A stretch of 48,972 nt of DNA, from positions 1 to 48,972 of the forward strand of contig JAJFUR010000050.1 in the NCBI GenBank assembly GCA_021372335.1. The letters are read 5' to 3'. Below the pieces are notes generated by a model. It worked only from the letters and a program-made list of their open reading frames with translations. It was not told the DNA's origin and ran no database searches. Below, piece after piece: positions 4,036 through 35,588 of this stretch; the stretch's first letter is position 1, and each line of letters starts with the position of its first letter. Position numbers and translations under genes: made by a program. This stretch comes from Methanobacteriota archaeon. Lineage in GTDB: Archaea > Thermoplasmatota > Thermoplasmata > Methanomassiliicoccales > UBA472.

Positions 4036-4071
4036 CAGATTTATCATGCCAAGGTAGTTAAGGGATTCCTC

Positions 4072-4820: not shown

Positions 4821-4848
4821 TATCCCCGTCCCTCCCAAGGGGTGGAGG

Positions 4849-5648: not shown

Positions 5649-5658
5649 GGTGTGAACC

Positions 5659-5850
5659 ATGGCTGCGAAGAAGAAAGAGGTCAAGAAGGAAGCGCCCTCG
5701 GCCAAGAAGGACAACTACCAGATCAAAGGGAACAAGCTGGAACGGACGAGGAGGAGCTGTCCCAAATGCGGCCCCGGGGTGTTCATGGCCGAGCACAAGG
5801 ACCGCACCTCCTGCGGCAAGTGCGGCTACACCGAGTTCAAGAGGAAATGA
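5659..5850 (+). CDS. rps27ae: Ribosomal protein S27ae
   Basis: Zinc-binding small-subunit protein, the archaeal counterpart of the ribosomal part of eukaryotic ubiquitin-S27a. The 63 residues carry a Lys-rich N-terminus, then [16 protein letters not shown] and CGKCGYTEF, giving zinc ligands Cys34, Cys37, Cys52 and Cys55. A gap of 10 bp to rps24e with GAGGTG in it makes it the last protein gene of the rpo7 operon; the tRNA gene behind it has its own TATA box. Confidence 0.96.
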
Positions 5851-5882
5851 GCCGCTCCTCCTCGAACGAGGATGAAGCGCTC

Positions 5883-5890
5883 TTTATAAT
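5883..5890 (+). promoter_or_regulatory. TATA box of the tRNA-Arg gene
   Basis: TTTATAAT, 13 bp before the first base of the tRNA, in the short gap after rps27ae. Confidence 0.5.
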
Positions 5891-5902
5891 TCCAATGGTC
5901 GC

Positions 5903-5976
5903 GGGCCTGTAGTGTAGCTTGGATATCACAGAGGCCTCCGGAGCCTCGAACTGGGGTTCGAATCCCCACAGGCCCG
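5903..5976 (+). tRNA. tRNA-Arg (anticodon CCG)
   Basis: Cloverleaf read directly: acceptor GGGCCTG/CAGGCCC with discriminator G at 5976; D arm GTG/CAC; anticodon stem GAGGC/GCCTC with loop CTCCGGA, anticodon CCG reading CGG; T arm TGGGG/CCCCA with loop TTCGAAT. The length is 74 nt with no intron. The 3' CCA is not encoded (CCT follows), so it must be added after transcription. CGG codons are in use in this GC-rich genome. Confidence 0.95.
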
Positions 5977-6008
5977 CCTTCTCCCTTGGCTTTTCTATTA
6001 GCTCAAGT

Positions 6009-6017
6009 AATTTATTA
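6009..6017 (+). promoter_or_regulatory. TATA box of the phosphomevalonate dehydratase operon
   Basis: AATTTATTA, 25-33 bp before ATG 6042. This spacing predicts a transcript with almost no leader. Confidence 0.5.
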
Positions 6018-6041
6018 TCTCCCAACGGCATTGTCGGCGGC

Positions 6042-7208
6042 ATGCAACTGACCCCTGAAGAACAGGCCATGCTGGCCGGCAAGGAAGGCAAGGCCAAGCG
6101 CAAGGCCATGGGGCTCCTCGTGGCGCTGGGAACGATCTACGGCGCCGACAGGCTCATCCCGATCACCTCCGCCCACCTCTCCGGCGTGTCCTACAAGACC
6201 ATAGGGGAGGGGGGCATCTCCTTCTTGGAGGAGATGGCCGAGGACGGAAGGGTCTCCGTGCCCACCACCCTGAACCCGATGGGGATGGACGTGGAGCGCT
6301 GGAGGGAGATGGGGGTCGACGCGCACTTCGCCGAGCGCCAGCTGCACATCCTGTCCCTGTACGAAAGGATGGGCGTGGAGACGAACTGCACCTGCACGCC
6401 CTACCTTCTGGGCAATCGGCCGAACGTCGGCGACCATGTCGCCTGGGCGGAATCGTCCGCGCTCGCCTTCGCCAACTCTGTCCTGGGCGCCAGGACCAAC
6501 AGGGAGGGCGGCCCGGGGGCCCTGGCCGCCGCCATCGTCGGCCGCACCCCCAACTACGGCCTCCATCTGGACAGCAATCGCCGCGCCACCCACGTAGTGG
6601 AGGTGGAGCAGGGGATAGGGAAGGAGGAATGGTCGTTGGTCGGGCATGCCGTCGGCCGGAGGCTCGGCTCCTGCATCCCTTACTTCCGAGGTTTGGACAA
6701 CGACGTCAACGGCCTGAAGGCCTTGGCCGCGGCCATGGCCGCCTCCGGGTCGGTCGCGATGTTCATGGTGGAGGGCGTGACGCCCGAGCAGCCTGTGACG
6801 CTGGAGGGGCTCCCCGTGGTGCGCATCTCCCGCCAGGACATCGAGGCCACGGTCCAGAGGCTGAGGGCTGGCGACCGCCCGGACCTGATCGCGATCGGCT
6901 GCCCCCATCTCTCCGAAAGCGAGATGAAGGAGCTGGCCGCTTACCTTGATGGCAAGTGCAAGAAGGGGGGGACGGAGGTGTGGTTCTGCACCTCGAGAGG
7001 CGTATGGCTGCGCTGCCCGAAGGAGAGGGCGGTGCTGGAGAGGTTCGGCAAGGTGCTGTGCGACACATGCGTGGTGGTCGCGCCCATAGAGGGGCTGCAT
7101 CGCGTCACGGCGAGCGATTCCGCCAAGGCCTATGCCTACCTTCCCGGCCTGTGCTCGCAACGGGCGCTCTATGGCTCCCAGCGCGAACTGTTGGAGATGA
7201 TACTATGA
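6042..7208 (+). CDS. Phosphomevalonate dehydratase large subunit (aconitase X)
   Basis: Converts mevalonate 5-phosphate to trans-anhydromevalonate 5-phosphate in the archaeal mevalonate pathway, the route to isopentenyl phosphate for membrane lipids. The 388 residues are those of the AcnX large subunit: N-terminal LTPEEQAMLAGKEG, the GADRLIPITSAHLSGVSYKT substrate region, and cysteines for the Fe-S cluster in NCTCTPY (Cys116, Cys118), GCPHLSESE and CDTCVVV. The frame is open upstream through the tRNA gene, so the start must be ATG 6042, which also fits the TATA spacing. The stop overlaps the small-subunit start (ATGA). Confidence 0.93.
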   Translation: MQLTPEEQAMLAGKEGKAKRKAMGLLVALGTIYGADRLIPITSAHLSGVSYKTIGEGGISFLEEMAEDGRVSVPTTLNPMGMDVERWREMGVDAHFAERQLHILSLYERMGVETNCTCTPYLLGNRPNVGDHVAWAESSALAFANSVLGARTNREGGPGALAAAIVGRTPNYGLHLDSNRRATHVVEVEQGIGKEEWSLVGHAVGRRLGSCIPYFRGLDNDVNGLKALAAAMAASGSVAMFMVEGVTPEQPVTLEGLPVVRISRQDIEATVQRLRAGDRPDLIAIGCPHLSESEMKELAAYLDGKCKKGGTEVWFCTSRGVWLRCPKERAVLERFGKVLCDTCVVVAPIEGLHRVTASDSAKAYAYLPGLCSQRALYGSQRELLEMIL

Positions 7209-7978
7209 TAATGAAGGGACGGGCGATATTCAAGGGCAAAGCGATCGGGCGGCTTCTGGTGCTGGACGAGGCGTTCAGCTTCCTCGGAGGAGTGGACCCC
7301 CGGACAGGGCTGCTCACCGTGGCCTCAGGGCGGGAAGGGGAGAGCATAGACAACCGCATCCTGGTGTTCCCGCATGGGAAGGGGTCCACCGTGGGCTCGT
7401 ACACGCTCATGGACCTCAAGAAGAACGGCCACCTTCCGGCGGCCATCATCAACGCCGAGGCGGAGACGATAGTGGCCACGGGCGCCGTCATGGCCGAGGT
7501 CCCCATGATCGATTCCATCGACATCTCGTTGCTGCGCGAGGGGGACCGGGCGGTGGTGAACGGGGATTCCCTGGACATGATGGACCTGGTGGAGAGGAAG
7601 GTGGTCACCTGCGTGCTCCGCCGCAAGGGCCGGATCCTGCTCCTGAAGCGCAGCCAGAAGGTCGGCACCAACAGGGGGAGGTGGGCGGGGGTGAGCGGCT
7701 TCATCGAGCGCGGGGAGAGGCCGGAGGAGACCGCCCTGCGGGAGGTGGTCGAGGAGACCGGCATCGCCACGGCGAGGCTGGAGGGAAGGGGCGGGACGCT
7801 ACGCATCCGGGACGGGACGTACGTATGGACGATCCATCCCTTCCTGTTCGAGGTGGGCGACGAGGAGCCCAGGCTGGACTGGGAGCATACCGAGTTCGCC
7901 TGGGTGGAACCGAAGGAGCTTTCGGGGTACGACACCGTGCCCGGCTTCCAAAAGGTCCTCGGGACCTTGGGCCTATAG
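7205..7978 (+). CDS. Phosphomevalonate dehydratase small subunit fused to a Nudix hydrolase domain
   Basis: Residues 1-135 are the swivelling small subunit (DUF126) of AcnX-type phosphomevalonate dehydratase: MKGRAIFKGKAIGRLLVLDE, then RILVFPHGKGSTVGSY with the conserved serine region, and PMIDSIDISLLREGDRAVVNG. Without a break the chain continues as a Nudix domain (about 136-257), with a complete Nudix box at residues 165-187 (G-x5-E-x7-REVVEETGI) and the preceding WAGVSG. The usual small subunit ends near residue 135, so this is a fusion; I see no stop, frameshift or restart between the parts. The Nudix substrate is unknown; a phosphorylated isoprenoid intermediate is a guess from context. 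It overlaps the ileS tail by six bases. Confidence 0.93.
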   Translation: MIMKGRAIFKGKAIGRLLVLDEAFSFLGGVDPRTGLLTVASGREGESIDNRILVFPHGKGSTVGSYTLMDLKKNGHLPAAIINAEAETIVATGAVMAEVPMIDSIDISLLREGDRAVVNGDSLDMMDLVERKVVTCVLRRKGRILLLKRSQKVGTNRGRWAGVSGFIERGERPEETALREVVEETGIATARLEGRGGTLRIRDGTYVWTIHPFLFEVGDEEPRLDWEHTEFAWVEPKELSGYDTVPGFQKVLGTLGL

Positions 7979-10900
7979 GACCCCGTCCACTTCCTTCTCC
8001 AGCAGGTTCAGCTCGTTGGCGTCGAGGGTGGAGGGGTTCAGCACCATCAGCATTATCGAGTTGCTGATGGCCACCTGGTCCCGCAATGACTGCACGAACC
8101 GCAGCACGGTCAGGAAGTTGTTGTTCGTGATGAGGTACTCCAGACCGTCCAGCAATACGATCCCCTGCCCCTGCGAGAAGAACTGCTCCAACGTGTAGTT
8201 AAGCTTCTCAAGGTCCTTCGGGCGCAGGCTGTCCTCCTTGCCGACGTTGCTCAGCCAGATCATGGGCGTGTCCCCGAGCTCGTACTTGCTCCGGACCTTG
8301 ACCGGGTAGTTGCGGGTGATGCAGAAGCCCCGGCGCCCCTTCTTCAACTGCTCCACGAAGAGCGCGTACGAGCGGTCGGGCCGATCGTCCTTGAGGAGAT
8401 AGCTGCACCCTTCCTGAAGCCCCTGGACCTTGGGGCGCTCCGGCTCCTCTTCCTGCGCCGCCGGGCGCAGCGAGGTCCCGCAATCCGGACAGACCAGCTC
8501 CCCGGCGGAGGCCTCCCTACCGCACTGCGGGCAGGGCACGCACCCCTGCAGGCCGCCCTCCGCGATGTACCTGACGACCTCGTCGATGGTCTTGCTCCCC
8601 AGGCCGGGGACGTCCTTCAACCCCTCCCTGTCGGCCTTCTCCAGCTTTTCCAGGGAATCGTATCCGGCGTCGTAGAGCATCTCCGCCTTGACCTCGTTCA
8701 TGCGGGGGATGCGCAGGAGGTAGGGGAGCATCTCCGTCCTTTCCATGGTCCTGCCGGTGCCCTCGGGCACCGCCCTGCAGGTCTCCTGGGAGCGGTCGAA
8801 GTGATGCAGGGCCTTCCGGACCTCGGCCTTGGGCAGCTTGGTTATCTCCTCCAGCCGCTCCTCGCCCAGATGCCTGATCTCACCTGGACTGCGCACGCCC
8901 GCATCGACCAACGCCTCCGCGGCCTTGGGCGTGATCCCCGGGACCTTGGCCAGCTCCTTGATGGCATCCTTGAGGTTCAGGGAGGTGACCCCTATCTCCA
9001 CCTTCTCACCCTCGATCTCCCATTTGCCGACCCTTTCCCCCTTGGCCTCCATCACCAGCTCGAGGGCCTTGGCGCGCACCTCCGCCATGATGTGCGGCTT
9101 CCACATCTTGACGTACTCCGCGACCCGGGGGTCGGCCCGCACCTCCACCCTGATGAACTCCTCCACATCCAGCCCCATGTCCTTCCGGGTCTGCTGGACC
9201 CTGCGGATGATCTCCCGGGCGAAGCCCTCGGCCTCGATCTCCTTGGTCACCTCGAAGTCCAGGTAGAGCTCGCCCCCGCTGAAGGGGGCGGAGTGGACGT
9301 CCTTGGGGAGGGAGATGGTGAAGGACACCATGTTGGGCTCGATCTTGACCATCTGCCCCTCTATCCCCAGGGAGTACTCCCCGCGCTGCATGCTCTCCTT
9401 GATCGTGGCGGCAGGCCGGCTCTGCAGCAGCACGGCGATCTTGGAGGCCCATTGCCTGTACACCTTGCCGATGGCCATCGGGTTGGGGACGACGTTGAGC
9501 CTGGTCTCCGCCCATTCCTCCCCCGCGCCCACGTACTCCACCGCCTTGACGTTGGCCTGGGAGCGCAGGATGCCCTCCAGAGCCTTCAATGGCTGGATCA
9601 TGTCATTGCTGGAGACCTTGATCACTACCCGCTTCATGGGCCAGCGGAGCTTGACGTTCCTCAGCTGGCGCTCCCGCGTGATCGTCTCCACGATCTCCTG
9701 CACCAGGGCCATCGCCTTCTCCAGGCGCTCGTCCACGAGCGTGAGGTCGCTGGCAGGCCAGTCCATCATGTGGACCGAGGGCTTCGTGCCGTCCATGTGC
9801 TGGTACACCTCCTCGGCGAGGTGGGGGCAGATCGGGGCGAGGAGCAGCGTCGTGTCCATGATCGCATCGTAGAGCGTGCGGTAGGCTGCCAGCTTGCCCG
9901 CGTTCCCCTCCTCGCTCCACATGCGGTCACGAATGAGCCGAACGTACCAGCGCGAAAGATCGTCCAGGATGTATTGTTCGAGGGCCCGGCCGGCCTTGTG
10001 CAGCTCCAGGGCGTTCACCTGGCGGGTGAACTCGTTCTTGAGCTTCTCCGTCCTGGATATCAGCCATGCGTCCTCCTGGTTCAGATGGGGCTTGGCCATG
10101 TCCCTGGTGACGCGCTGCGGGTCGAAGCTGTCGATGGCCATATAGGTGGTGGCGAAGTTGACCACGTTCCAGAGCACGTTGAGGGTCTTCCGGGCGTTCT
10201 TGACCCCGTCCATCTGGAAGGGGATGTCCTCCCAGGGCGCAGATGTCTTAAGGAGGTAGAAGCGCAACGCGTCCGCACCATGTTCCTTGACGACCTTACC
10301 CGGCTCGACGACGTTGCCCTTGCTCTTCGACATCGGCTGCCCCTGGCCGTCCAGCATCCAACCGTGCATGAGCACCGATTCATAGGGCGCCCGGCCGAAG
10401 GCGATCACCCCGGCCGCCAGCTGGGAGTAGAACCAGCCGCGGGTCTGGTCATGGGCCTCGACGATGAGCTTGGCAGGCCAAAGGCGCTCGAACGCCTCCC
10501 GTTGCCTCGGGAACCCTAGCTGCGCCCAGGAGGCGACCGCCGAATCGAACCAAACGTCCAGGACATCCGGCACCCGGACCATCTTCCCCCCGCACTTGGG
10601 ACAGCGCAGCTTTACGCCATCGATCCAGGGCCGGTGGAGCTCCATGTCCTCCACGTACCCTTCGGCGTCCTTCAGCTCGTCTACCAAGCCGACCACCCTC
10701 ATCTCCCCGCACTTGCATGTCCAGACGGGGATCGGGATCCCCCAGTACCGCTGCCTTGATATGCACCAATCGCGGGCGTTCCTGGTCCAGTCATACTCAC
10801 GCGAGGAACCGGCCCAGTCCGGCGTCCACCGGACCTTCTCGATCTCCTCCAACATCTGGTCCTTGACCTGGGTGATCCGCAGGAACCATTGGTCGGTGGT

Positions 10901-12133
10901 GCGGAACAGCACCGGGGACTTGCACCGCCAGCAATGGCCTACGCGATGCTCGATGGTGCCGCTGTAGAACAGGCTGTCCATCGCCTCCAGGTCCTTCAGC
11001 AGCTCCGGGTTGGCCTTCCTTATGTGCATGCCAACGTACTTGCTGCCGACCAGGGCCGTGTACGTCCCGGTCTCGTCCACCGGGCAGAAGGGCTCCAGGC
11101 CGAACTCCTTTCCCAGCTCGAAGTCCTCCGGACCGTGGCCCGGGGCGATGTGCACCAGCCCGGTATTGGAGGCCTCCACGTTCTTCGAGGGCAGGACCTT
11201 GTGGAGCCACTTGCCGCCCGCCTGCGTCTGGTAGGGGACCATGTCGACGAAGGGGGTGATGTACTCCGTCCCCACCAGGTCGTCCCCCTGAATGGTCTGC
11301 AGGACCTCGTACCTCTCCCACCCCCCTAGGGCCCTGATCTCCTCCTCCAGCCCCTTCATCACGATGACCGTGTCCGTGATCCCGATGCGCCGATAGCGCA
11401 CCTTTACGTACTCGAAGTCCGGATGGGCTGCCACCGCGAGGTTGGCGGGCAGCGTCCAAGGGGTGGTGGTCCAGATGAGCAGGGAGACCTTCGGATCGTC
11501 CTTCAGGCGGAACTTGACGTAAATGGAAGGGTCCTTCTCGTCCCAGTAATCGATCTCCGCCTCCGCCAGGGCGGTCTCGCACCTCGGGCAGCCGGGAAGC
11601 ACCCGGTTGGCCTTGATCAGCAGCCCCTTGTCATAGGCGCGCCTCAGGGTCCACCAGGCCGCCTCGATATACCCGGGGGTGATGGTCATGTATGGCCGGT
11701 CCCAGTCCATCCATACCCCCAGCTCCTGGAAGTCCGCGTTCATCTGCTTCTGGAACTCCAGTGCGAAGTTCTTGCAGGTCCCGACGAACCGATCGATGCC
11801 GTACGCCTCTATCTCCTTCTTGTTCTTGACCCCGATCGACCTCTCGACCTTGACCTCGATGGGAAGCCCATGCATGTCGTAGCCGGGGGTATCGGTCACG
11901 TTGAGCCGGTGCATGCGCTTGAACCGGATCAGCATGTCCTTGATGGTCTTGTTCATCGCCGTCCCGAGGTGGATGTACCCGGTCGTGTACGGCGGGCCGT
12001 CCACGAAATAGAACTCAGGGGAGGAGGCCCGCAGTTCCTTGGTCTTCCTGTACGCGTCCGTCTCCGCCCAATAGGCCTGCACCCTCTTCTCTAGCGCATT
12101 GGGGTCATAGTTTCCTTGGACCTGCTTTATCAT
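7973..12133 (-). CDS. ileS: Isoleucyl-tRNA synthetase with C-terminal HhH, zinc-ribbon and DUF835 extension
   Basis: Residues 1 to about 1043 are a class I IleRS: HLGT (HIGH motif) at 55-58, the editing domain with WTTTPWTLPANLAV, the GWFYSQL and MSKSK (601-605) catalytic region, the anticodon-binding helices and the C-terminal GEKVEIGVTSL. The frame then continues for about 340 residues: two or more helix-hairpin-helix units (AKVPGITPKAAEALVDAGV; LKDVPGLGSKTIDEVVRYI), a zinc ribbon CPQCGREASAGELVCPDCG near residues 1197-1216, and a DUF835 domain (about 1235-1386). Normal archaeal IleRS is about 1040-1070 residues. Codon use is even throughout, with no sign of a lost stop. DUF835 is known mainly from archaeal regulatory proteins. 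A weak TATA lies near 12166-12174 on the minus strand. Confidence 0.93.
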   Translation of the reverse strand: MIKQVQGNYDPNALEKRVQAYWAETDAYRKTKELRASSPEFYFVDGPPYTTGYIHLGTAMNKTIKDMLIRFKRMHRLNVTDTPGYDMHGLPIEVKVERSIGVKNKKEIEAYGIDRFVGTCKNFALEFQKQMNADFQELGVWMDWDRPYMTITPGYIEAAWWTLRRAYDKGLLIKANRVLPGCPRCETALAEAEIDYWDEKDPSIYVKFRLKDDPKVSLLIWTTTPWTLPANLAVAAHPDFEYVKVRYRRIGITDTVIVMKGLEEEIRALGGWERYEVLQTIQGDDLVGTEYITPFVDMVPYQTQAGGKWLHKVLPSKNVEASNTGLVHIAPGHGPEDFELGKEFGLEPFCPVDETGTYTALVGSKYVGMHIRKANPELLKDLEAMDSLFYSGTIEHRVGHCWRCKSPVLFRTTDQWFLRITQVKDQMLEEIEKVRWTPDWAGSSREYDWTRNARDWCISRQRYWGIPIPVWTCKCGEMRVVGLVDELKDAEGYVEDMELHRPWIDGVKLRCPKCGGKMVRVPDVLDVWFDSAVASWAQLGFPRQREAFERLWPAKLIVEAHDQTRGWFYSQLAAGVIAFGRAPYESVLMHGWMLDGQGQPMSKSKGNVVEPGKVVKEHGADALRFYLLKTSAPWEDIPFQMDGVKNARKTLNVLWNVVNFATTYMAIDSFDPQRVTRDMAKPHLNQEDAWLISRTEKLKNEFTRQVNALELHKAGRALEQYILDDLSRWYVRLIRDRMWSEEGNAGKLAAYRTLYDAIMDTTLLLAPICPHLAEEVYQHMDGTKPSVHMMDWPASDLTLVDERLEKAMALVQEIVETITRERQLRNVKLRWPMKRVVIKVSSNDMIQPLKALEGILRSQANVKAVEYVGAGEEWAETRLNVVPNPMAIGKVYRQWASKIAVLLQSRPAATIKESMQRGEYSLGIEGQMVKIEPNMVSFTISLPKDVHSAPFSGGELYLDFEVTKEIEAEGFAREIIRRVQQTRKDMGLDVEEFIRVEVRADPRVAEYVKMWKPHIMAEVRAKALELVMEAKGERVGKWEIEGEKVEIGVTSLNLKDAIKELAKVPGITPKAAEALVDAGVRSPGEIRHLGEERLEEITKLPKAEVRKALHHFDRSQETCRAVPEGTGRTMERTEMLPYLLRIPRMNEVKAEMLYDAGYDSLEKLEKADREGLKDVPGLGSKTIDEVVRYIAEGGLQGCVPCPQCGREASAGELVCPDCGTSLRPAAQEEEPERPKVQGLQEGCSYLLKDDRPDRSYALFVEQLKKGRRGFCITRNYPVKVRSKYELGDTPMIWLSNVGKEDSLRPKDLEKLNYTLEQFFSQGQGIVLLDGLEYLITNNNFLTVLRFVQSLRDQVAISNSIMLMVLNPSTLDANELNLLEKEVDGVL

Positions 12134-22029: not shown

Positions 22030-23682
22030 TCACCAATCCTCCAACATCGGGAGCATCACCCTTTCGGCCATGTTCTCCAGGGTCTCGATCCCGGTGACCT
22101 TCTCGGCGTAGGGCGTGAGGGAGACGATGTCGGTACGCCTAATCCGGTCCAGGGAGAACTTCCTGCTCCCCGCCATCAGCTGCTTCAATCCCTCCCCCAG
22201 GCGGTCCACGAGGTAGGTGTACTCACCCACGGCCCCATAGGGGATGTCCTTCCCAAGCCTCAGCCCCGGATAGCGGCGCTCGATCTCCTGGGCGGCGACG
22301 AAGAAGGTACGGGGGTCGCTGCCGTAGGCGGCCGTGAAGTTGCTCGGTAGGGCGTTGGTCTCCGCCAACCTCAGGAAGTTGGCGCTCTTCATTACCGTAA
22401 GGAGGGGCGCCCGGGCCATGGCGATCGCCTTCACCAGCGACCCCTCCCCAAGGTCCCCCAAGGCCATTGCCTTGAACATCTGTGTCTCGTTGACAAAGCC
22501 CCCCGCCATCACCAGGTCGGGGATGAACTTGCCCTTCTCCTTCATCACCCTAGCGCACGTCATCGCCTGGGCCTGCAGGTGCACGGTGGGAGTGCTCATC
22601 TCGTTCATCATCGGGACGGGGGACATGCCGGTGCCTCCGCCCGCGCCATCGAAGGTAAGCATGTCCACCTTGGCCTCCGAGGCAGCCTTCATCGTGAAGG
22701 CGACCACCTCCGGCCGGTAGGCCCCCGTCTTCAGGAAGACGTACCTGGCACCCTTGCTTCTCAGTTCCTCCACGTCCTCCACGAACGACCTGTGCTCGGG
22801 GAACCCAACCCGGGAATGTCTCTCAAAGCTCTTGAACGCCCCGGCCCTGAACTCTTCCTGGACGGCCCTGTCCTCCGGGTCTGGAAGGACGAGATAGCCG
22901 CGCCTCTTCATCTCCAACGCCCTCTCCAGCGTCGTCAACCGAACCTCCCCCCCGATGGCCTTGGCGCCCTGGCCCCACTTCCTTTCAATGATGTCGACCT
23001 CCAGCTTGCTCAGGGCGTACTCGTCTACCCCGCCCCTCTGGTCCTCGACATTGGTCTGGACGGCGATGCCCCCGTGCTTCCCGTCCCAGAGTTCCCTGAA
23101 CGCCCTCACCCGGGAGGCCATGTCCGGCGAGTTAGTGACCTTTCCGTTGGTATAGGTCGCCTCGGGGTCCATGCCGCACACGTTCTCCCCCACGGTTTGG
23201 ATGATCCCGCTCATTGCCGCCCCCTTCGCCATGGCCTCCCAATGACGCTTGGCCACGGCGGTGGAGCCAAGGCCCGGGAGGACGATGGGCACCTTCAACG
23301 GTATCGGCCTCTTCGAGTGCGTGGCCACCGCGCTAGTGATATCAACGTTCTCGAAGAACGCCTTGTCCGACGAAGGCTCGATCCCCTCGGCCCCGATGAG
23401 CTCAGCCATGATCTGGAAGTGGGACCACTCGAGCTGGAACTCCTTGTTGGCGGCGGCAGTGCTCTTCCCGTAATACTCCGGCATGGGGTACAGGACCTCA
23501 CGGCCACGGAAGGTGGACTTCCCCACCTCGCAAAGGACGTTGCAGTCCTCGATGCAGATGGGGCACATACCGTTCACTGGGCTGATATCAGGCACACGGG
23601 TCTTTGTGCCTGTGGTCGATCTACTGTTCTCAATGATGTTCAAGGCTATCTCACTCCCCTCATAGGGTTCAGGTCCTCCCAT
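22030..23682 (-). CDS. FMN-dependent glutamate-synthase-like oxidoreductase
   Basis: A 550-residue protein corresponding to the FMN/synthase domain of glutamate synthase: AVATHSKRPIPLKVPIVLPG, GEVRLTTLERALEMKRRGY, MLTFDGAGGGTGMSPVP (FMN phosphate loop) and DLVMAGGFVNETQMFKAMALG. There is no glutaminase domain. The N-terminus carries MCPICIEDCNVLCEVGKS, a C-x2-C-x3-C-x3-C cluster that may hold Fe-S. Stand-alone proteins of this type occur in archaea and may use ammonia or another amine, or act on a different substrate; no partner gene is adjacent. The start is ATG 23682, followed upstream by an AT-rich gap. Confidence 0.85.
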   Translation of the reverse strand: MGGPEPYEGSEIALNIIENSRSTTGTKTRVPDISPVNGMCPICIEDCNVLCEVGKSTFRGREVLYPMPEYYGKSTAAANKEFQLEWSHFQIMAELIGAEGIEPSSDKAFFENVDITSAVATHSKRPIPLKVPIVLPGLGSTAVAKRHWEAMAKGAAMSGIIQTVGENVCGMDPEATYTNGKVTNSPDMASRVRAFRELWDGKHGGIAVQTNVEDQRGGVDEYALSKLEVDIIERKWGQGAKAIGGEVRLTTLERALEMKRRGYLVLPDPEDRAVQEEFRAGAFKSFERHSRVGFPEHRSFVEDVEELRSKGARYVFLKTGAYRPEVVAFTMKAASEAKVDMLTFDGAGGGTGMSPVPMMNEMSTPTVHLQAQAMTCARVMKEKGKFIPDLVMAGGFVNETQMFKAMALGDLGEGSLVKAIAMARAPLLTVMKSANFLRLAETNALPSNFTAAYGSDPRTFFVAAQEIERRYPGLRLGKDIPYGAVGEYTYLVDRLGEGLKQLMAGSRKFSLDRIRRTDIVSLTPYAEKVTGIETLENMAERVMLPMLEDW

Positions 23683-23883: not shown

Positions 23884-24084
23884 ATGGCTCTCAATCTGCT
23901 ATGGCTCGGTACTATATGGGGAGCGGCGGTGGGGATCATCCTGGCCGATGTCCTGTACTTTTTCACGGATTCGCTGGCATCGTTCCTGCTGTTCGTTCCA
24001 TGCGCCCTCGTCGGCTACCTCATCGCCCGACGGACCCTCCGTAAATGGAGGTCCTCCGAGGGGCATGCCGAGGAGAAACGATAG
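23884..24084 (+). CDS. Small membrane protein
   Basis: Unrecognised 66-residue protein with two hydrophobic helices (about residues 3-27 and 30-48) and a basic, then charged tail (RRTLRKWRSSEGHAEEKR), so the C-terminus is probably cytoplasmic. AAGGTG lies 7 nt before ATG 23884. It precedes the SPFH/zinc-ribbon operon by 46 bp and could be its first gene, although a separate T-rich promoter-like stretch (ATTTTTAATTC near 24089-24100) lies between. Confidence 0.65.
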   Translation: MALNLLWLGTIWGAAVGIILADVLYFFTDSLASFLLFVPCALVGYLIARRTLRKWRSSEGHAEEKR

Positions 24085-24130: not shown

Positions 24131-24670
24131 ATGCCTTTGCCAGACATCAGGGACAGGGTCGAGGAGGACCGGGGGCTGTTAAAGAAGATCCAAACGGTCA
24201 TCCCAGGGTTCCGCGGGTACAGGATCAGGGAGGACCTCAGGGACTCCGACCGTATGCTCAGGGCCGAGCTCGCCAAGAGGTTGAGGACACAGAGGGCCCA
24301 GCTTGAGGACGCTCGGCGCGCATTGGTGAGGACGGACCCGATGTCCAAGGCCCTGGAGGAGATCGGAGGGGTGGTCAATGCGATGAAAAGGGTCGAAGCG
24401 GAGATGGTCCATTCCGAGGTGGGCTATTCCGGGGTCGCCGCGGACGTACGGATCAGGGACGATGAACTTAACATGCTCTATGAGTACGATGCCTCGATGA
24501 TCGAGAGCCTGGGATTCATCGACCAGGCGCTGGTGAGGGTCCCGGAGGCGATCAGGGCGGGGAACGATGGCGACCTGAGGCAGGCGGTGGGGACACTGAG
24601 GGCCAGGGTCGATGGGCTGGAGGACCGCTTCAAACGCCGTATGACCGCAATAACAGGAACGGGGCTGTGA
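24131..24670 (+). CDS. Helical protein at the head of the SPFH/zinc-ribbon operon
   Basis: A 179-residue, almost fully helical protein with high Arg/Glu/Asp content and no cysteine or membrane segment. The segment KIQTVIPGFRGYRIREDLRDSDRMLR near the N-terminus looks like the conserved part of a family often seen next to SPFH and zinc-ribbon genes (impression from memory, untested). Long heptad-like helices follow (RRALVRTDPMSKALEEIGG; DLRQAVGTLRARVDGLEDRF). ATG 24131 is set by GGAGGGG 3 nt upstream; the frame is open further up but overlaps the previous gene. The SPFH gene starts 4 bp after the stop. Confidence 0.7.
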   Translation: MPLPDIRDRVEEDRGLLKKIQTVIPGFRGYRIREDLRDSDRMLRAELAKRLRTQRAQLEDARRALVRTDPMSKALEEIGGVVNAMKRVEAEMVHSEVGYSGVAADVRIRDDELNMLYEYDASMIESLGFIDQALVRVPEAIRAGNDGDLRQAVGTLRARVDGLEDRFKRRMTAITGTGL

Positions 24671-24674
24671 GCAG

Positions 24675-25805
24675 ATGAGCCTTATCGGTGCTGAGACATT
24701 CAATTGGGAGGACGGGAACAAGCGGAACAACATCATGTACCGCATGCCCCGCAACATCAAGTTCAACGACAATATCGTGGTCCGCGAGGACGAGATCGCC
24801 GTGTTCTATCGGGACGGGAAGGCGCTCGCCTACCTGGACCGGCCGGACCGGTACGCCCTCACGTCCCTCAACGCCCCCGTGATCGGGAAGGTGATCGAGG
24901 CGCTCTCGGGGGCCCGGCAGCAGGCCGAGGTCATCTATCTGCAGAAGAGGGCGTTCGACGGGAAGTACGGCAGCAAGCAGCCGTACCAGTTCCGCGACGC
25001 GGAGTTCGGGATGGTCAACCTGCGCGTTTTCGGGGAGTTCCGGTACAAGGTCGGGTCCCCGGAGAACTTCGTCAATCAGTTCGTCGGCACCTTCAACTTC
25101 ACCACGTCCACGGAGGTCGAGGAGCGGATAAAGGAGCAGATGGTGATGCTCATCTACAACGCCATCGGCGAGCTCAAGAACCGGGGGATGGGTGTGGCGG
25201 ACCTGGCAAGCCAGCTGATGAACATCGAGCAGGTCGTGCTGACCAAGGCCAAGGACCACTTCGAGCTGTACGGGGTGGTGGTGGACAAGGTCTCGGGCAT
25301 GTACATCTCCCTGCCGGACGAGGTACAGAAGGCGGTGGACATGCGGGCGTCCATGCAGATACTCAACACCAGCTACGCCACCTACCAGGCGGGCCAGGCG
25401 ATGCGGGAGGCGGCCTCCAACCCCGCCGGCGGGGCGGCCGCGGCCGGGGTCGGCGTGGGCGCGGGCTTCGGGGCGGGGTACATGATGGTGGACGCGATGC
25501 GCCAGGGCGGGACGGCCCCCCCGGCGGGGGCGCCGGCCGTTGCGGTCCCCCCGGTCGCGGGAACGGTCGCATGCCCGAAATGCAGCACGCCGAACCCCCA
25601 GGGCGCCAAGTTCTGCCGCAGCTGCGGGAACAGGCTGCAGAACGGCACGGTCAAGTGCGGCAGGTGCGGCAGCGAGATGCCCGCGGACTCCAAGTTCTGC
25701 GCTGAGTGCGGGCAGCAGCTCAAGGGCAGCAAGAGCTGCTCCAAGTGCGGAAAGGAGTCCCCCGTCAGCGCCAAGTTCTGCCCGGAGTGCGGCACCGGCC
25801 TCTGA
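24675..25805 (+). CDS. SPFH/band-7-like protein with three C-terminal zinc ribbons (COG4260, YdjI-like)
   Basis: Residues about 20-235 form an SPFH-type domain of the YdjI/COG4260 group (NIVVREDEIAVFYRDGKALA; DAEFGMVNLRVFGEFRYKVG; HFELYGVVVDKVSGMYISLP). A Gly/Ala/Pro-rich linker (about 240-298) contains a short hydrophobic stretch. The C-terminus has three double-Cys ribbons: CPKC/CRSC, CGRC/CAEC and CSKC/CPEC. SPFH proteins assemble large rings or scaffolds on membranes. It is the centre of an operon with a helical protein upstream and three zinc-ribbon proteins downstream; gaps are 4 to 9 bp or overlaps. Confidence 0.88.
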   Translation: MSLIGAETFNWEDGNKRNNIMYRMPRNIKFNDNIVVREDEIAVFYRDGKALAYLDRPDRYALTSLNAPVIGKVIEALSGARQQAEVIYLQKRAFDGKYGSKQPYQFRDAEFGMVNLRVFGEFRYKVGSPENFVNQFVGTFNFTTSTEVEERIKEQMVMLIYNAIGELKNRGMGVADLASQLMNIEQVVLTKAKDHFELYGVVVDKVSGMYISLPDEVQKAVDMRASMQILNTSYATYQAGQAMREAASNPAGGAAAAGVGVGAGFGAGYMMVDAMRQGGTAPPAGAPAVAVPPVAGTVACPKCSTPNPQGAKFCRSCGNRLQNGTVKCGRCGSEMPADSKFCAECGQQLKGSKSCSKCGKESPVSAKFCPECGTGL

Positions 25806-25814
25806 GGTGCTCCA

Positions 25815-26558
25815 ATGGCAAGCATGAAGTGCCCCAAGTGCGCCGCCCCGGTGGAGTTCGATGCCGGCGACAGGTTCGTGAAATGCTCCTATTGCTCGTC
25901 CCAGATCTTCATCGACAAGGCCGGGGCGGGGTTCATCTACGCCCTGCCGTTCTCGGTCACCGAGAACGATGCCGTCGGCATCTTCCGGCGATGGGCGGCG
26001 GGCCCTACCCGGGCCAAGGACCTGGACAAGCTGGCCCAGATCTCTTCCCTGAAGAAGCAGTACTTCCCCGTCTACATGTTCAAGAGGGACGTCAACGGCA
26101 TGGAGCACGTCTACATTGAACCGGCGGCCTCGACGACCCTCCCCGGCCTGCACAACCTCAAGGTGCCGGGGGGCGACCTGAAGATATTCGACGACCGCTT
26201 CGACACCGGCGGCGCCGAACTCGTCAAGATCGACATAGAGATGGCACCCTACCTGAGCAGCCTTCCCGGGACGGCGAAGGAGCAGGCCCTGGTCTATTTC
26301 CCAATATGGAGGCTTGACTACGCCTTTGAGCAGAGGGCGTACGTCGCGGTGATCAGCGCATCCTCGGGGGAGGTCTTCTCCGGCGATTTCCCGAAGCGGA
26401 GCTCGGGGGCGTACATGGCCGTCGCCGGGCTGGGCTTCCTGGCCTTCCTGGCCGAGGGGCTCCTGGCAATAGCGAGCCCTGTCCTGGCGGGGGCGCTGAT
26501 GGCCGTGACCGTCGCCGGCGTGTTCGGCGCGTCCAACTACGTTGCGCGGAGGATGTAG
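25815..26558 (+). CDS. Zinc-ribbon membrane protein of the SPFH operon (first)
   Basis: A 247-residue protein beginning MKCPKCAAPVEFDAGDRFVKCSYCSS-like (TFIIB-type ribbon, C-x2-C at 6/9 and 24/27), then a soluble region with LPFSVTENDAVGIFRRWAAG and YFPVYMFKRDVNG, and one hydrophobic hairpin near the C-terminus (about 200-240, GFLAFLAEGLLAIASPVLAG). The same plan (ribbon, YFPIWRLDYAF-like strand, C-terminal membrane hairpin) recurs in the next gene, so the two are paralogues. The function is unknown; a membrane anchor for the SPFH protein is a reasonable guess. Ends in TAG, 2 bp before the next start. Confidence 0.75.
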   Translation: MASMKCPKCAAPVEFDAGDRFVKCSYCSSQIFIDKAGAGFIYALPFSVTENDAVGIFRRWAAGPTRAKDLDKLAQISSLKKQYFPVYMFKRDVNGMEHVYIEPAASTTLPGLHNLKVPGGDLKIFDDRFDTGGAELVKIDIEMAPYLSSLPGTAKEQALVYFPIWRLDYAFEQRAYVAVISASSGEVFSGDFPKRSSGAYMAVAGLGFLAFLAEGLLAIASPVLAGALMAVTVAGVFGASNYVARRM

Positions 26559-26560
26559 AT

Positions 26561-27562
26561 ATGGCGATAAGCGTGGGGCTGAACTGCCCGGCATGCGGCG
26601 GTGCCATCCAGGTCGCCGAAGGGGACAATGTCCTCAATTGCGGCTACTGCGGATCGCTGCTCTGGGCCGAGGGGGACGCCGGGGTGATGACCGTGGCCTA
26701 CCGCAACGTGCAGGGGCGCGACTCAGTGCTCAGGGCGACGGAGCAATGGTGGAGGAAGGGATGGAAGGCCAGGGACCTGAGGGAGAAGGGAAAGCTGCTG
26801 GAATGCTACCCCATCTATCTCCCGTTCTGGAGCACCACCACCCGTGTGGCCGGTTGGATATGCGGCTATGAGGAGCGGAGGCACACCGACCGGGAAGGCA
26901 ACGTCCGGACCGAGAGGATCCCGATGGAGGAGATGGTGCTGAACGACTACCGCTACACGAGCATCGCCTGCGACCCGGGCGACCTGGGGATAAGATACCT
27001 CAGGAACGTGGGGGGCGAGGCCTCCTTCGCCGATTTCGAGAGCATCCCGACCTTCGAGAGCACCACAAGCAAGGACGAGATGATCGCGACGTCCAAGCAG
27101 AGGGCCTTGGAGGAGGCGCGCGGCGACGCCAACGTGCCGCACATCACCTTTGAGAGGGTCATCGCGATCCCGAAGGGCATCAGCCGGATCTACTACCCGG
27201 TCTGGGTCGTGCGCTATTCGTACGGGGAGAGGATGTACATGGCGACTGTGGACGGGGTGACCGGGAACGTGCTATCGGGAAGGGCTCCGGGGGACCCGCT
27301 CTACCAGAGCCTGGCGGTGACGGCGGGCACCTCAATAGGAGGCCTGATCGCCGCCGGGGGGCTGGCCTTCGGCCTCGGGGCGGGGGAGGGCCTCCTCGCC
27401 CTCATCGGCCTGGTCGTCGGGGGCGCGGTCCTCGCCCTGACCTACCGGTTCTTCCGCCATGGCTCGGAGATCGTCGAGGGGGACTTCGAGGGCAAGGCCG
27501 CCGACATGCGTGGGAAGCTCATGAAGGAGGCCAGGCGGACGTTCAGGGGGTTCCACACATGA
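26561..27562 (+). CDS. Zinc-ribbon membrane protein of the SPFH operon (second)
   Basis: A 333-residue paralogue of the preceding protein: N-terminal ribbon CPACGGAIQVAEGDNVLNCG with CGYCGS, a repeated pattern of soluble strands (CYPIYLPFWSTTTRVAGW; RIYYPVWVVRYSYGERMYMA), and a C-terminal hydrophobic pair (TSIGGLIAAGGLAFGLGAG; LLALIGLVVGGAVLALTY) followed by a basic tail. It has two copies of the 'YPxWxxxY' unit where the first protein has fewer. The 3' end overlaps the next start by four bases (ATGA), which suggests fixed stoichiometry. Confidence 0.75.
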   Translation: MAISVGLNCPACGGAIQVAEGDNVLNCGYCGSLLWAEGDAGVMTVAYRNVQGRDSVLRATEQWWRKGWKARDLREKGKLLECYPIYLPFWSTTTRVAGWICGYEERRHTDREGNVRTERIPMEEMVLNDYRYTSIACDPGDLGIRYLRNVGGEASFADFESIPTFESTTSKDEMIATSKQRALEEARGDANVPHITFERVIAIPKGISRIYYPVWVVRYSYGERMYMATVDGVTGNVLSGRAPGDPLYQSLAVTAGTSIGGLIAAGGLAFGLGAGEGLLALIGLVVGGAVLALTYRFFRHGSEIVEGDFEGKAADMRGKLMKEARRTFRGFHT

Positions 27563-28146
27563 GGGTCGTCCAGGTCAAATGCCCGCGCTGCCAGCAGCCC
27601 ATCTACTCCAAGGTCAAGGACCTCGCGTTCTACTGTCAGCACTGCCGCACGATGCATATCCGCAACGGCGGGACGAACATCATCGACTTCGACATCGCGG
27701 AGTTCAGCCCCAACGCCCGGGGGGACCGGGTCTACATGCCCTTCTGGCGGCTGTTCTCCTCCTTCACCATCAACCAGGCCAACGTGGCCGGCGGGACCTT
27801 CCACAAGCTCAGCCGCATGATCAAGGGCACCGCCAACGGCGGGAACCTCTTCATCTACGTCCCGGCGTGGGAGACGGCCGTGGATGAGTTCAAGCGCTGG
27901 TCAATGGGAATGACCGAGGGGCAGCCGATGTACTCCCTCAGGCAGGACTTCAACAACGTGGAGAGGGGGCCGACGGCGATCACCAAGGAGGAGGCGATGC
28001 AGTTGGCCGACTTCGTGGTAGTGACCATGGAGGCGGAGCGGCCTGGCACCCTGCAGTACCTTGACTACAGCCTGCAGGTGCACGACGCCCGGCTGGTGTA
28101 TCTGCCGTTCGTGCGCGGGGCGCAGGGATTGGTCTCGGGGCTTTGA
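27559..28146 (+). CDS. Soluble zinc-ribbon protein of the SPFH operon (third)
   Basis: A 195-residue member of the same set without a clear membrane segment. The ribbon is CPRCQQPIYSKVKDLAFYCQ with CQHC; then come VYMPFWRLFSSFTINQ, LFIYVPAWETAVDEF, QLADFVVVTMEAERP and RLVYLPFVRGAQG, echoing the 'Y-x-P-x-W' units of its neighbours. It is translationally coupled to the gene before it and closes the operon. Function unknown. Confidence 0.72.
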   Translation: MRVVQVKCPRCQQPIYSKVKDLAFYCQHCRTMHIRNGGTNIIDFDIAEFSPNARGDRVYMPFWRLFSSFTINQANVAGGTFHKLSRMIKGTANGGNLFIYVPAWETAVDEFKRWSMGMTEGQPMYSLRQDFNNVERGPTAITKEEAMQLADFVVVTMEAERPGTLQYLDYSLQVHDARLVYLPFVRGAQGLVSGL

Positions 28147-28285: not shown

Positions 28286-31162
28286 ATGTCTGAGAGGTCC
28301 GTGCAGCTCGAGGCTAAGTGGCAGGAGCGCTGGTATTCGGCGCGCATCAACGAGGCGGAGGTGGACGGCCGGCCCAAGTTCATGCTCATCTTTGCCTACC
28401 CTGGGGTCACTGGCTACCTGCACGTCGGCCATATGCGGGGGTTCACCTACGTGGACGCGATCGGGCGCTTCAAGCGATTGGAGGGATACAACGTCCTGTT
28501 CCCGGTGGGGACCCACGCCACCGGGAACGGGGCGATAAGCCTGGCCGCCAGGATCGCCCGCAAGGACCAGCGGACCATCGACTACCTGTGCGACAACACC
28601 TGCCCAGTTGACATGCTGGAGAGCCTGAAGGACCCGCTGAAGGTGGTGGAGTTCTTCAACGCCGTGTACGTCAACCAATACTGGAAGCGGTTCGGCTTCC
28701 TGAGCGATTGGCGGCGGTTCACCTCGACCGTCAACCCCGATTACCAGATGTTCATCCGATGGCAGTTCCTCAAGCTGATGGAGAAGGGGCTGTTGATTCA
28801 AAGGCCATACTACGCCCCCGCCTGCGTCTGCCACGGGCCGGTGGCCATAGACGCCTCCGAGACCGACATCCAGTGCGGGGGGTCGGCCGAGACGCTCGAG
28901 TACACGCTGCTCAAGTTCAAATGCGGCGACATGTACCTGGTCGCCGCCACCCTTCGCCCGGAGACCGTGTTCGGCCAGACGAACTTCTGGGCCAACCCGG
29001 AGGCCGAGTACGCCAAGGCGAGGGTGGGGAACGAGACCTGGGTGGTGTCGACGAAGTGCCTCGAGAAGCTGATGTTCCAGAAGGATGGCATAGAACCGAT
29101 CGGCTCCTTGAAGGGAAGCGAGCTGATCGGGCTCAGTTGCATCGCCCCAATGGTCCACAGGGAGGTCCTCGTCCTTCCCGCGGACTTCGTAGACCCGGCC
29201 GTCGGCACAGGGCTTGTTACCTCGGTCCCCTCGGACTCCCCGGACGACTGGGTGGCGCTTCGCGCCCTGCAGAGGGACGAGGCCACGCTGCGCCGGTACG
29301 GCCTGGATGTTGAGAAGGTAAGGGCGATAACGCCGATCGCCATCATCGAGATGAAGGGCTGGTCCCCCCTGCCTGCGGTCGAGGTCACCGAGCGGATGGG
29401 CATAGAGGCCCCCGGGGACCCCAGGCTGGAGGAGGCCAAGCGGTTGGTGTACAAGGACGGCTTCCACATCGGGCGGATGAACGACACCGCGGGGGAGTAC
29501 GCGGGCCTACCGGTCATGGAGGCCAAGGAGAAGATAAGGCAGGCAATGGTCTCCGCGGGGGAGGCGGACGTGATGTACGACCTCTCGGAGCCCGTGATCT
29601 GCAGGTGCGGCAGCCCGGTGCTCATCAAGAAGGTCGACGACCAGTGGTTCATCGATTATGCCAACCCGGAGGTCACCGCCGCGGCCCACGAGCAGGCGAG
29701 GAGGATGGTCATCCTCCCCCCGGAGTACTATCAGAACATCCACGGTGTCCTGGATTGGTTCCGGGAGAGGGCATGCGTCCGGCAGGGCAATTGGATCGGC
29801 ACGCGCTTCCCGTTCGATGAGAAGTGGATAATCGAGGCCATCTCCGATTCGACCCTGTACCCCCTGTATTACACCATTTCCAAATTCGCCAACGACGGTT
29901 CCGTCCGGCCGGAGCAGATGACCGAGGAGTTCTTCGACCTCGTCGTTCTGGACAAGGGGGACGCCGCCTCGGTGAGCGCCAGGACCGGCGTGCCCCAGGA
30001 ACTGCTCATGAGGATTAGGGAGGAGGTCCACTACTGGTACCCACTGGACCTGAACCTGGGAGGGAAGGAGCACATGACCGTGCACTTCCCCGCCTTCCTG
30101 ATGAACCACGTGGCGATCCTCCCGCCCGAGATGCTCCCCCGCGGGATCTTCGTGAACTGGTATGTGGTGGGCAAGGGCGGAAAGATATCCAAATCGAAAG
30201 GGGGGGCGCAGCCGATCCCCGGGGCCGCGGAGCGCTTCGGCATCGATGCCCTCCGGCTCTATTACGCGCACATCGCCTCGCCCCATGCTGATGTGGAATG
30301 GGAGGACGAGGCCGTGGAGAGCTACACCGCCCGGGTGGAGAGGATGGAGCGCCTCCTGCTGGACCTCATGCGGATGGACGGGCAGGCGAGCACGGTGGAC
30401 GGCTGGCTTGTGTCCAGGATGGCCAACCGCGCCGGCTGGGTCCGGGAGGCGATGAAAGGGTACGACATTCGAACCCTCGCGAACGAGGTCTTCTTCGAGG
30501 CCTTCAACGACCTCCGCTGGTACCAGCGGAGGGGAGGGGGCAACGCCGCGACCGTCCGGAGGGTCATGGACATCCTGCTTCCCCTCATGATGCCGATCAC
30601 CCCGCACCTCGCGGAGGAGCTCTGGGAGATGTCAGGGCATGAGGGGTTCGTCTCCACCACGACATACCCAGAGGCGCTGGAGGGGGAGATCGACCCGGCC
30701 AAGGAAAGGGCCGAGGACTACCTCATGGCACTGATGGAGGACGCCAACGAGATCCTGAAGGTGACCGGGATCAGGCCGAGGAGGATGACGCTCTTCACCT
30801 CCCCCGCCTGGAAGCACAAGGTCCTGGCTATGGCGATTGACCTCCACTCCAAGGGCGAGCTGAAGGTCCCCACGCTGACCAAGATGGCCATGGCCGATGA
30901 GGAGGTGCGTGCGCATGGCAAGGAGGCCTCCGACTACGCGCGGAGGATGGCCGAGGAGCTGATGAAGCGCTCCTCCCCCGAGGTGCAGAAGATGGCGCAC
31001 ACATTCGACGAGCGCGCGTTCCTTGAATCGAGCAGGGGGTTCCTCGAGCGGGAGTACGGCTGCATCGTCGAGGTGCACGGGGCCGAGGAGCGGGGGGCAT
31101 CCGACCCTCAGCACAAGGCCAGGCAGGCGGCCCCGGGGCGGCCGGCGATCATCGTGGAGTGA
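28286..31162 (+). CDS. leuS: Leucyl-tRNA synthetase, archaeal type
   Basis: A 958-residue class I synthetase. The HIGH motif is HVGH in PGVTGYLHVGHMRGF, the editing domain contains LRPETVFGQTNFWANP, a Cys pair lies in CRCGS near the catalytic insert, and the KMSKS loop is KISKSKGG. The anticodon-binding helices (PITPHLAEELWEM) and a C-terminal domain follow, ending in a low-complexity tail (DPQHKARQAAPGRPAIIVE). Length fits archaeal LeuRS. It stands alone with its own promoter. A short GC hairpin in the 15-bp gap to the convergent ubiX gene (around 31172-31191) may stop both transcripts. Confidence 0.97.
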   Translation: MSERSVQLEAKWQERWYSARINEAEVDGRPKFMLIFAYPGVTGYLHVGHMRGFTYVDAIGRFKRLEGYNVLFPVGTHATGNGAISLAARIARKDQRTIDYLCDNTCPVDMLESLKDPLKVVEFFNAVYVNQYWKRFGFLSDWRRFTSTVNPDYQMFIRWQFLKLMEKGLLIQRPYYAPACVCHGPVAIDASETDIQCGGSAETLEYTLLKFKCGDMYLVAATLRPETVFGQTNFWANPEAEYAKARVGNETWVVSTKCLEKLMFQKDGIEPIGSLKGSELIGLSCIAPMVHREVLVLPADFVDPAVGTGLVTSVPSDSPDDWVALRALQRDEATLRRYGLDVEKVRAITPIAIIEMKGWSPLPAVEVTERMGIEAPGDPRLEEAKRLVYKDGFHIGRMNDTAGEYAGLPVMEAKEKIRQAMVSAGEADVMYDLSEPVICRCGSPVLIKKVDDQWFIDYANPEVTAAAHEQARRMVILPPEYYQNIHGVLDWFRERACVRQGNWIGTRFPFDEKWIIEAISDSTLYPLYYTISKFANDGSVRPEQMTEEFFDLVVLDKGDAASVSARTGVPQELLMRIREEVHYWYPLDLNLGGKEHMTVHFPAFLMNHVAILPPEMLPRGIFVNWYVVGKGGKISKSKGGAQPIPGAAERFGIDALRLYYAHIASPHADVEWEDEAVESYTARVERMERLLLDLMRMDGQASTVDGWLVSRMANRAGWVREAMKGYDIRTLANEVFFEAFNDLRWYQRRGGGNAATVRRVMDILLPLMMPITPHLAEELWEMSGHEGFVSTTTYPEALEGEIDPAKERAEDYLMALMEDANEILKVTGIRPRRMTLFTSPAWKHKVLAMAIDLHSKGELKVPTLTKMAMADEEVRAHGKEASDYARRMAEELMKRSSPEVQKMAHTFDERAFLESSRGFLEREYGCIVEVHGAEERGASDPQHKARQAAPGRPAIIVE

Positions 31163-34448: not shown

Positions 34449-35588
34449 CTAGTCCTCGGAGACGAGTTCAGCCCCGCACGCGGGGCAGCTGTCGGCCCGC
34501 CTCCCCACTCTCTCATGGCATCGCGGGCATATGAAGACCTCGCCGTCGTCCTTCCTTCGAATAGATGGATAAATGAAGACCGCTCCGGAGATGATCATCA
34601 GCGAGCTCACCGCCCCCCCCATTAGGCCGATGGCGGTACCGAGGACCCCCAAGGCAATAAGCGTGAGGACCGAGAGGTAGCCGACAATGCCCAGCGCCAG
34701 GACGGCAATGGGGACGATGCCTTCCCACCCCTCCCCTTCCGTGACCTCGGCCATGGACGGGGGTTGGACAGCGAACGAAGGGGACGGAGCCGTTGGTGCG
34801 CCCTCCTCTTGTACGGAGGGTTCGGCCATCGATCGATGATCGGCTTCTGCCGCTACAAGAGCGGCCTCCTGTTCGACGGAAGCAGGAGCCCCGAGATTCT
34901 CTTTGGAAACGGCCGTTTCCGTCCCGGCGTCCGCGGCTCCATCCACCTCGGGGGAGGACAGCATCCCAGGTTCAACAGCCGCACCCGGTCCCTTTTGCCC
35001 CTCAGCCTCCGGGGCGACGGGTTCGGCCGCGGATGCCTGACCGCCATCGGCCGGGACTGCCTGCTGCGCATCCATCCCCTCGCCGCTCGGTTGTGTTACC
35101 CCTTCTTCGATTACAGGTCCGGTCCCCGCCTCCTCTGGCGCTGAGGGCGTTCCCTCTTTCACCGGAGGCTCGGCCTCGGTGGGGATGGCCGCCACCTCGA
35201 CCGTGATCGGAATGTTCCCCATCAGACCGTCCGAGGCTGATCCCGCAGGCCTCGGAATGTCCGTCTTCTCAGAGCCCCTATTCTTTGGAGATGGGGCTTG
35301 CTCGTCAAGCTCCCGCAGCGCCCTGCCGATATCGTCCGCTTCCCTGATATCCATGTTCTTCTGGGGGGCCGTTTCCTTACGGATGATCGTGGATTCGATG
35401 CGCTTGGACGTTCGTTCGTCCACCGGCCCACGCAGCTCGATCCGGTTGAGCGATTCGAGGTCCTTGATATGCTGTTGCCAATCATCCGCCGATATCAAGC
35501 TCTGCCCGCAAAAATCGCACTGGGTTGCGCCTGGCTTGTTGCGCAGCCCGCATTTAGGGCATTCCTTGAAACCGGCCTTCCTTTCCAT
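34449..35588 (-). CDS. Membrane protein with zinc ribbons at both ends and an acidic disordered linker
   Basis: Unrecognised 379-residue protein. N-terminal zinc ribbon ECPKCGLRNKPGATQCDFCG (residues 9-28), a charged region, then about 190 residues rich in Glu, Ala, Pro and Gly without predicted structure (about 95-285), two membrane helices (about 290-340, IVPIAVLALGIVGYLSVLTL and the next), and a second ribbon CPRCHERVGRRADSCPACG at the C-terminus. Both ribbons should face the cytoplasm if the helices form a hairpin. Divergent from the DUF373 gene across a 149-bp gap. Ends in TAG. Confidence 0.75.
   Translation of the reverse strand: MERKAGFKECPKCGLRNKPGATQCDFCGQSLISADDWQQHIKDLESLNRIELRGPVDERTSKRIESTIIRKETAPQKNMDIREADDIGRALRELDEQAPSPKNRGSEKTDIPRPAGSASDGLMGNIPITVEVAAIPTEAEPPVKEGTPSAPEEAGTGPVIEEGVTQPSGEGMDAQQAVPADGGQASAAEPVAPEAEGQKGPGAAVEPGMLSSPEVDGAADAGTETAVSKENLGAPASVEQEAALVAAEADHRSMAEPSVQEEGAPTAPSPSFAVQPPSMAEVTEGEGWEGIVPIAVLALGIVGYLSVLTLIALGVLGTAIGLMGGAVSSLMIISGAVFIYPSIRRKDDGEVFICPRCHERVGRRADSCPACGAELVSED

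Follow-up and report, generated by a model that had tools for sequence, protein, structure and literature searches.

We analyzed a 48,972-nucleotide stretch of archaeal DNA (contig JAJFUR010000050.1, assembly GCA_021372335.1, order Methanomassiliicoccales; hereafter the window), in which five adjacent genes, G1 to G5, encode a helical protein of an unnamed family, an SPFH protein with a zinc-ribbon tail, and three further zinc-ribbon proteins. The real unit of this operon is the G1–G2 pair, with the ribbon trio G3–G5 as a common accessory. We lean toward the view that the operon encodes a YdjGHI-like scaffold on the cytoplasmic face of the membrane in which G1 replaces PspA, because the SPFH and ribbon-membrane parts are kept as in Bacillus subtilis and the helical part is different. 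The G1–G2 partnership is well supported; from it and its context we infer a role in membrane maintenance, and likewise a physical complex, its oligomerization, and its recruitment to the membrane.

The G1–G2 Pair Is Widespread

One scan of a genome collection returned 80 G1 loci, archaeal and bacterial, distributed among the Thermoplasmatota, Methanomicrobiales, DHVE2, Thorarchaeota, Chloroflexota, Planctomycetota, Cloacimonadota, WOR-3, UBP9, and Acidobacteriota. G2 directly follows G1, starting no more than 200 bp away, in 75 of the 80; one of the five non-adjacent loci is at a contig end. Relatives of the ribbon proteins lie within 6.5 kb in 59 of the 80 loci. The window's phylum was sampled with 145 genomes, of which 40 contain G1, 42 contain a strong SPFH match (Band_7_1 at E ≤ 1e-15), and 39 contain both; in the sole genome with G1 alone, the pair is severed by the end of a contig. 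The Fisher p-value for this co-occurrence is about 1e-30 before correction for relatedness, which inflates it; the pairing nevertheless holds across many families and phyla. G1 was also found in 35 of 199 genomes of an Acidobacteriota-centered sample, and most of the loci retrieved there have an adjacent G2.

The five-gene set is not a product of chance, because it recurs in highly diverged genomes, and the breadth of its distribution rules out a local five-gene curiosity. The earlier note on this DNA, made from the sequence alone, had proposed an archaeal five-gene complex and had made its proposal depend on co-occurrence beyond close relatives. Such co-occurrence was found, the pair being present in archaea and in no fewer than five phyla of bacteria, and the proposal has to be redrawn in two respects: the system is also bacterial, and its core is G1 plus the SPFH protein. 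The carriers include the cultivated species Methanocorpusculum parvum and Methanomicrobium mobile, which makes the operon open to testing. Plasmid searches with G1 and G4 returned no matches.

Three Chloroflexota loci (L177, L181, and L183) encode a G1 without an adjoining SPFH gene. At L177 and L183, G1 is followed by an apparent fused xanthine-dehydrogenase-like FAD/2Fe-2S subunit.

G1 Represents a Helical Family Distinct from PspA and ESCRT-III

The AlphaFold2 model of G1 (predicted local distance difference test [pLDDT] score 83.5) is helical, with helices at residues 6–12, 16–23, 27–68, 74–94, 110–143, and 146–175. The family conserves the motif IPGYxGYRxxEDxRxADxxLR, followed further on by GYSG and LYEYD, and ten residues (P25, G26, Y30, D40, R44, L113, L116, Y117, D120, and R170) are invariant across 69 diverse members. 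In a family scan G1 matched no Pfam family; residues 8–171 align with the NCBIfam model NF047596 (LIMLP_15305) at E 1.8e-12 and 47.5 bits, below the equivalog cut-off of 210 bits. G1 is thus a member of a broad family of helical proteins, as yet without a name, to which LIMLP_15305 is distantly related. Neither this family nor the operon is described in the open full-text literature searched, which gives partial coverage. The G1 homologs of four loci (L079, L082, L086, and L090) bear an N-terminal zinc ribbon like those of G2, and at L086 the open reading frame (ORF) of the adjacent G2 is 609 residues long.

The idea that G1 is itself PspA or ESCRT-III was rejected on the family scan, profile comparison, and predicted fold, in keeping with the earlier note, which had put the helical protein in the PspA position without recognizing it as PspA and had called for a structural comparison with the PspA/ESCRT-III folds. 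A weaker form of the idea is that G1 is an extremely diverged member of that superfamily and the operon simply an archaeal pspA-ydjGHI. G1 is, after all, helical and adjoins a YdjI-type SPFH gene as PspA does, and the genomes with G1 and those with PspA or Snf7 are disjoint in the phylum sample. However, neither PspA_IM30 nor Snf7 is among the Pfam matches listed for the 69 G1 members, and hhalign gives a probability of 0.5% for G1 against a PspA profile that is thin, with two sequences. The PDB fold search with the G1 model yielded no match at E ≤ 0.001, and its 50 best matches include neither PspA nor ESCRT-III. In the model of this 179-residue protein, moreover, the second helix is short and the long PspA hairpin is absent. 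We regard extreme divergence from PspA as very improbable.

PspA is itself scarce where G1 occurs. The genome of the window's archaeon has no match to PF04012 or to Snf7. PspA_IM30 was detected in one of the 145 phylum genomes, which lacks G1, and in one of 14 distant G1-bearing genomes; the same search was positive for 9 of the 14 genomes used as controls. Snf7 was detected in five of the 145, none with G1, by a Pfam model that is weak on archaeal CdvB.

The SPFH Protein and the Ribbon Trio

G2 matches Pfam Band_7_1 at E 7.6e-33 (114 bits versus a cut-off of 24), a model that also detects B. subtilis. Its SPFH domain (residues ~23–228) is followed by a Gly/Ala-rich linker and three C-terminal zinc ribbons (~298–376) that include six CxxC motifs, a DZR match at E 1.3e-18, and additional zinc-ribbon matches. 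No hydrophobic segment was found in G2, which lacks a predicted transmembrane (TM) helix. These features identify G2 as a COG4260/YdjI-type SPFH protein with three ribbons, as had been proposed. In SPFH homologs elsewhere the ribbon tail is swapped for other tails. Some bacterial homologs have a helix-turn-helix-like tail, recognized by eye at L170 and from annotation in Comamonas.

G3, G4, and G5 each open with one CxxC-x14-CxxC ribbon and contain one, two, and two YxPxW-type units, respectively. Relatedness between G3 and G4 is detectable (E about 4e-5), and an iterated profile built from any of the three retrieves the remaining two; they form one paralogous ribbon family. The usual sizes are ~250 residues with two TM helices, ~335 residues with two TM helices, and ~195 residues with none. 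In the window, G3 contains two hydrophobic segments, forming a C-terminal hairpin, G4 is predicted to have TM helices at 246–274 and 277–301, and G5 has no hydrophobic segment. The AlphaFold2 model of G4 (pLDDT 77) comprises the ribbon, a long beta hairpin, a helix, a beta sheet, and the two TM helices, and a fold search with it gave no significant PDB match. Of the 31 G4 members, 5 matched PepSY/YPEB weakly, the best at E 0.002. According to Ravi et al., YdjG combines zinc ribbons, a YpeB-related domain, and a TM segment (PMC11237479); the make-up of G4 is consistent with YdjG as described in that paper, a likeness of architecture rather than of compared sequences. The earlier view of G3 and G4 as paralogs and of G5 as a soluble protein with the same units can thus be kept, as can the resemblance of the ribbon membrane proteins to the partners of bacterial COG4260 proteins.

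Ribbons also suggest a quite different function, as they weakly resemble those of RNA polymerase subunit P, TFIIB, and ribosomal proteins. The operon could be a signaling or nucleic-acid module in which the ribbons are binding sites for DNA, RNA, or RNA polymerase, with a regulator held at the membrane by the SPFH protein; the helix-turn-helix-like tails mentioned above would fit such a role. The ribbons, however, are generic, their fusion partners are TM hairpins and beta domains instead of regulatory domains, and the ribbon tail of the SPFH protein is replaceable, so we consider this explanation improbable.

Gene Order Variants

The G3–G5 trio joins G1–G2 in three archaeal groups and in two Acidobacteriota, and its internal order is constant wherever it occurs. 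The fullest Thermoplasmatota arrangement is [small TM protein]-G1-G2-G3-G4-G5, and that of the Methanomicrobiales is G3-G4-G5-[4-TM protein]-G1-G2; because the latter is swapped, the two sub-modules shift as blocks. The full five-gene order is conserved in the Acidobacteriota loci L180 and L213. Their G1 proteins group with bacterial G1s outside the main archaeal clade, in a tree that has long branches and a bootstrap not fully settled, and the G4 of L180 is 27% identical to that of the window. Based on this identity and on a tree of G1 only, it is unlikely that the Acidobacteriota recently acquired the five genes from archaea. In a sister family, f2 (L097–L102), G1 is fast-evolving, and a 512-residue ribbon/'VPFW' protein together with a ~300-residue protein encoded upstream replaces the trio.

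Psp- and Lia-Type Neighbors

In Firmicutes, LiaI anchors LiaH, a PspA homolog. The gene 5' of G1 has a LiaF-TM/LiaI-LiaF match above the cut-off at L129 and below it at L106, L133, and L134. Locus L211 of the Acidobacteriota-centered sample (3687–7009, minus strand) has the order G1, a ribbon/TM/Toastrack protein, and G2, and Toastrack is a recurrent partner in phage shock protein (PSP) systems (PMC11237479). At L223 (222–6046, minus strand), DUF4178, DUF350, and spermine synthase genes come next after G1 and G2, in a type of operon that normally holds a CesT/Tir-PspA dyad (Ravi et al.; PMC11237479). An envelope-stress role, as suggested in the earlier note, may be indicated by gene context of this kind.

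A Proposed Membrane Scaffold

In the scaffold that we favor, G3 and G4 would be anchored through their C-terminal TM hairpins, with ribbons and beta domains facing the cytoplasm. The TM-less G2 would be recruited to G3/G4 and form an SPFH oligomer on the membrane, with docking contacts provided by its ribbon tail, by the soluble G5, and, in some species, by the ribbon of G1 itself. The compact helical G1, the dedicated partner of G2 and likely the effector, would be the soluble component, stabilizing or remodeling the membrane in PspA's stead in lineages that usually lack PspA.

Several observations weigh against this reconstruction. The TPM domain, the hallmark of YdjH, is unmatched in the five proteins and in S0, the small protein encoded upstream of them; Psp-type neighbors are few, and many G1–G2 loci stand without a neighbor of the ribbon, LiaF-TM, or Toastrack kind. 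In addition, the phylum sample has only six genomes with PspA/Snf7, and the absence of G1 from all of them would, by our own estimate, arise by chance with a probability of about 0.14.

The same components could instead form an SPFH/ribbon platform for protein quality control or for assembly of membrane complexes, similar to HflK/C, with G1 as an adaptor or lid rather than a repair effector. In other systems, SPFH proteins serve as cages or as scaffolds of a chaperone-like kind, a chaperone-like role has been proposed for the band-7 and TPM partners of PspA (Ravi et al.; PMC11237479), and G1 is predicted to be a compact bundle without significant PDB likeness to membrane-remodeling folds. No FtsH-like protease gene, however, was seen among the G1–G2 operon neighbors examined, and those that recur are LiaF-TM, Toastrack, and DUF350/DUF4178. 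We therefore judge a platform of this type credible but rather unlikely.

The membrane scaffold has a bolder corollary, which we put forward tentatively: in archaea and bacteria without PspA, YdjI-type SPFH scaffolds might work with effectors of membrane maintenance that form a new family, founded by G1 and of no relation to PspA/ESCRT-III. Earlier work traces membrane repair by the PspA/ESCRT-III superfamily back to the last universal ancestor, yet PspA was detected in hardly any genome of this archaeal phylum. If G1 is such an effector, it would be an independent solution to a job thought to be universal to that superfamily; the SPFH scaffold, not PspA, would be the constant part, and PspA-less lineages would gain a candidate membrane-maintenance machine.

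Layout of the Locus

The five ORFs are present where the earlier note had placed them (24131–28146), and its description of tight spacing is accurate: the successive intergenic distances from G1 to G5 are 4, 9, 2, and −4 bp, the last being an ATGA overlap between G4 and G5. AGGAGGGG lies immediately 5' of the G1 ATG. Upstream of G1, at a distance of 46 bp, is S0, which had no match to any family in the family scan. Its position is conserved in the genus and close relatives; in relatives a small membrane gene encoding a 2-TM or 4-TM protein occupies it, which is LiaF-TM-like at some loci. S0 is a possible sixth member of the operon. The leucyl-tRNA synthetase gene, named by its sequence and class I synthetase domains, starts 139 bp 3' of G5, and a gene with a glutamate synthase domain borders the operon at the other end. 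The nearest named relatives of the window's archaeon, which is Methanomassiliicoccus-like, are the Methanomassiliicoccaceae.

Three further features of the window lie outside the operon, all on the minus strand. At 7973–12133 is an isoleucyl-tRNA synthetase-like protein of 1386 residues, an unusual fusion whose C-terminal extension carries helix-hairpin-helix, CxxC motifs, and a DUF835 domain. A 379-residue protein at 34449–35588 bears zinc-ribbon CxxC pairs at either end and has three TM segments. At 2810–3903, two neighboring ORFs resemble, by eye, an IS110-type transposase that may be split.

Table 1. Genes of the operon and its flanks in the window
Feature	Position	Strand	Description
Glutamate-synthase-domain gene	22030–23682	−	
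S0	23884–24084	+	66 aa (amino acids), two hydrophobic segments
G1	24131–24670	+	179 aa, helical protein, unnamed family
G2	24675–25805	+	376 aa, SPFH protein (Band_7_1, COG4260/YdjI type) with zinc-ribbon tail
G3	25815–26558	+	247 aa, ribbon, YFPIW unit, C-terminal two-TM hairpin
G4	26561–27562	+	333 aa, ribbon, beta region, two-TM hairpin; G3 paralog
G5	27559–28146	+	195 aa, soluble, ribbon, YMPFW and YVPAW units
Leucyl-tRNA synthetase gene	28286–31162	+	

Comparison with Known Systems

Literature searches for COG4260 and for TelA with SPFH found nothing. A role in anti-phage defense was discarded, as PADLOC matches are marginal only and PHROGs matches are not meaningful. LIMLP_15305 of Leptospira (NF047596), which aligns with G1, is a distant relative only. 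The archaeal SPFH protein of the Meth_adaptin ESCRT loci, with its coiled coil and zinc ribbon, is similar to G2 (PMC10936438), whereas no Vps4, ESCRT-III, or adaptin gene was recognized at the operon in the window. In the Paracoccus cluster TelA-DUF2927-SPFH-zinc ribbon, the SPFH gene is likewise followed by one for a ribbon/TM protein related to G4 (E about 6e-33), but the helical partner is TelA and the SPFH tail lacks zinc ribbons. The Escherichia coli yjf-type operon (CesT/Tir-PspA, DUF4178, DUF350, and spermine synthase) shares its three downstream genes with L223, which has G1–G2 in place of the CesT/Tir-PspA dyad.

The system used here as the model for the operon is pspA-ydjGHI of B. 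subtilis, in which YdjI recruits PspA to the membrane and YdjG and YdjH are required (PMC8581546). It differs from the operon in the window in that the helical protein of the latter is not PspA, there is no TPM-domain YdjH, and there are three ribbon paralogs versus one. Both, however, encode a soluble helical protein first, together with a TM-less YdjI-type SPFH protein with a C-terminal ribbon and a membrane protein with an N-terminal ribbon (PMC8581546; PMC9239133; PMC11237479).

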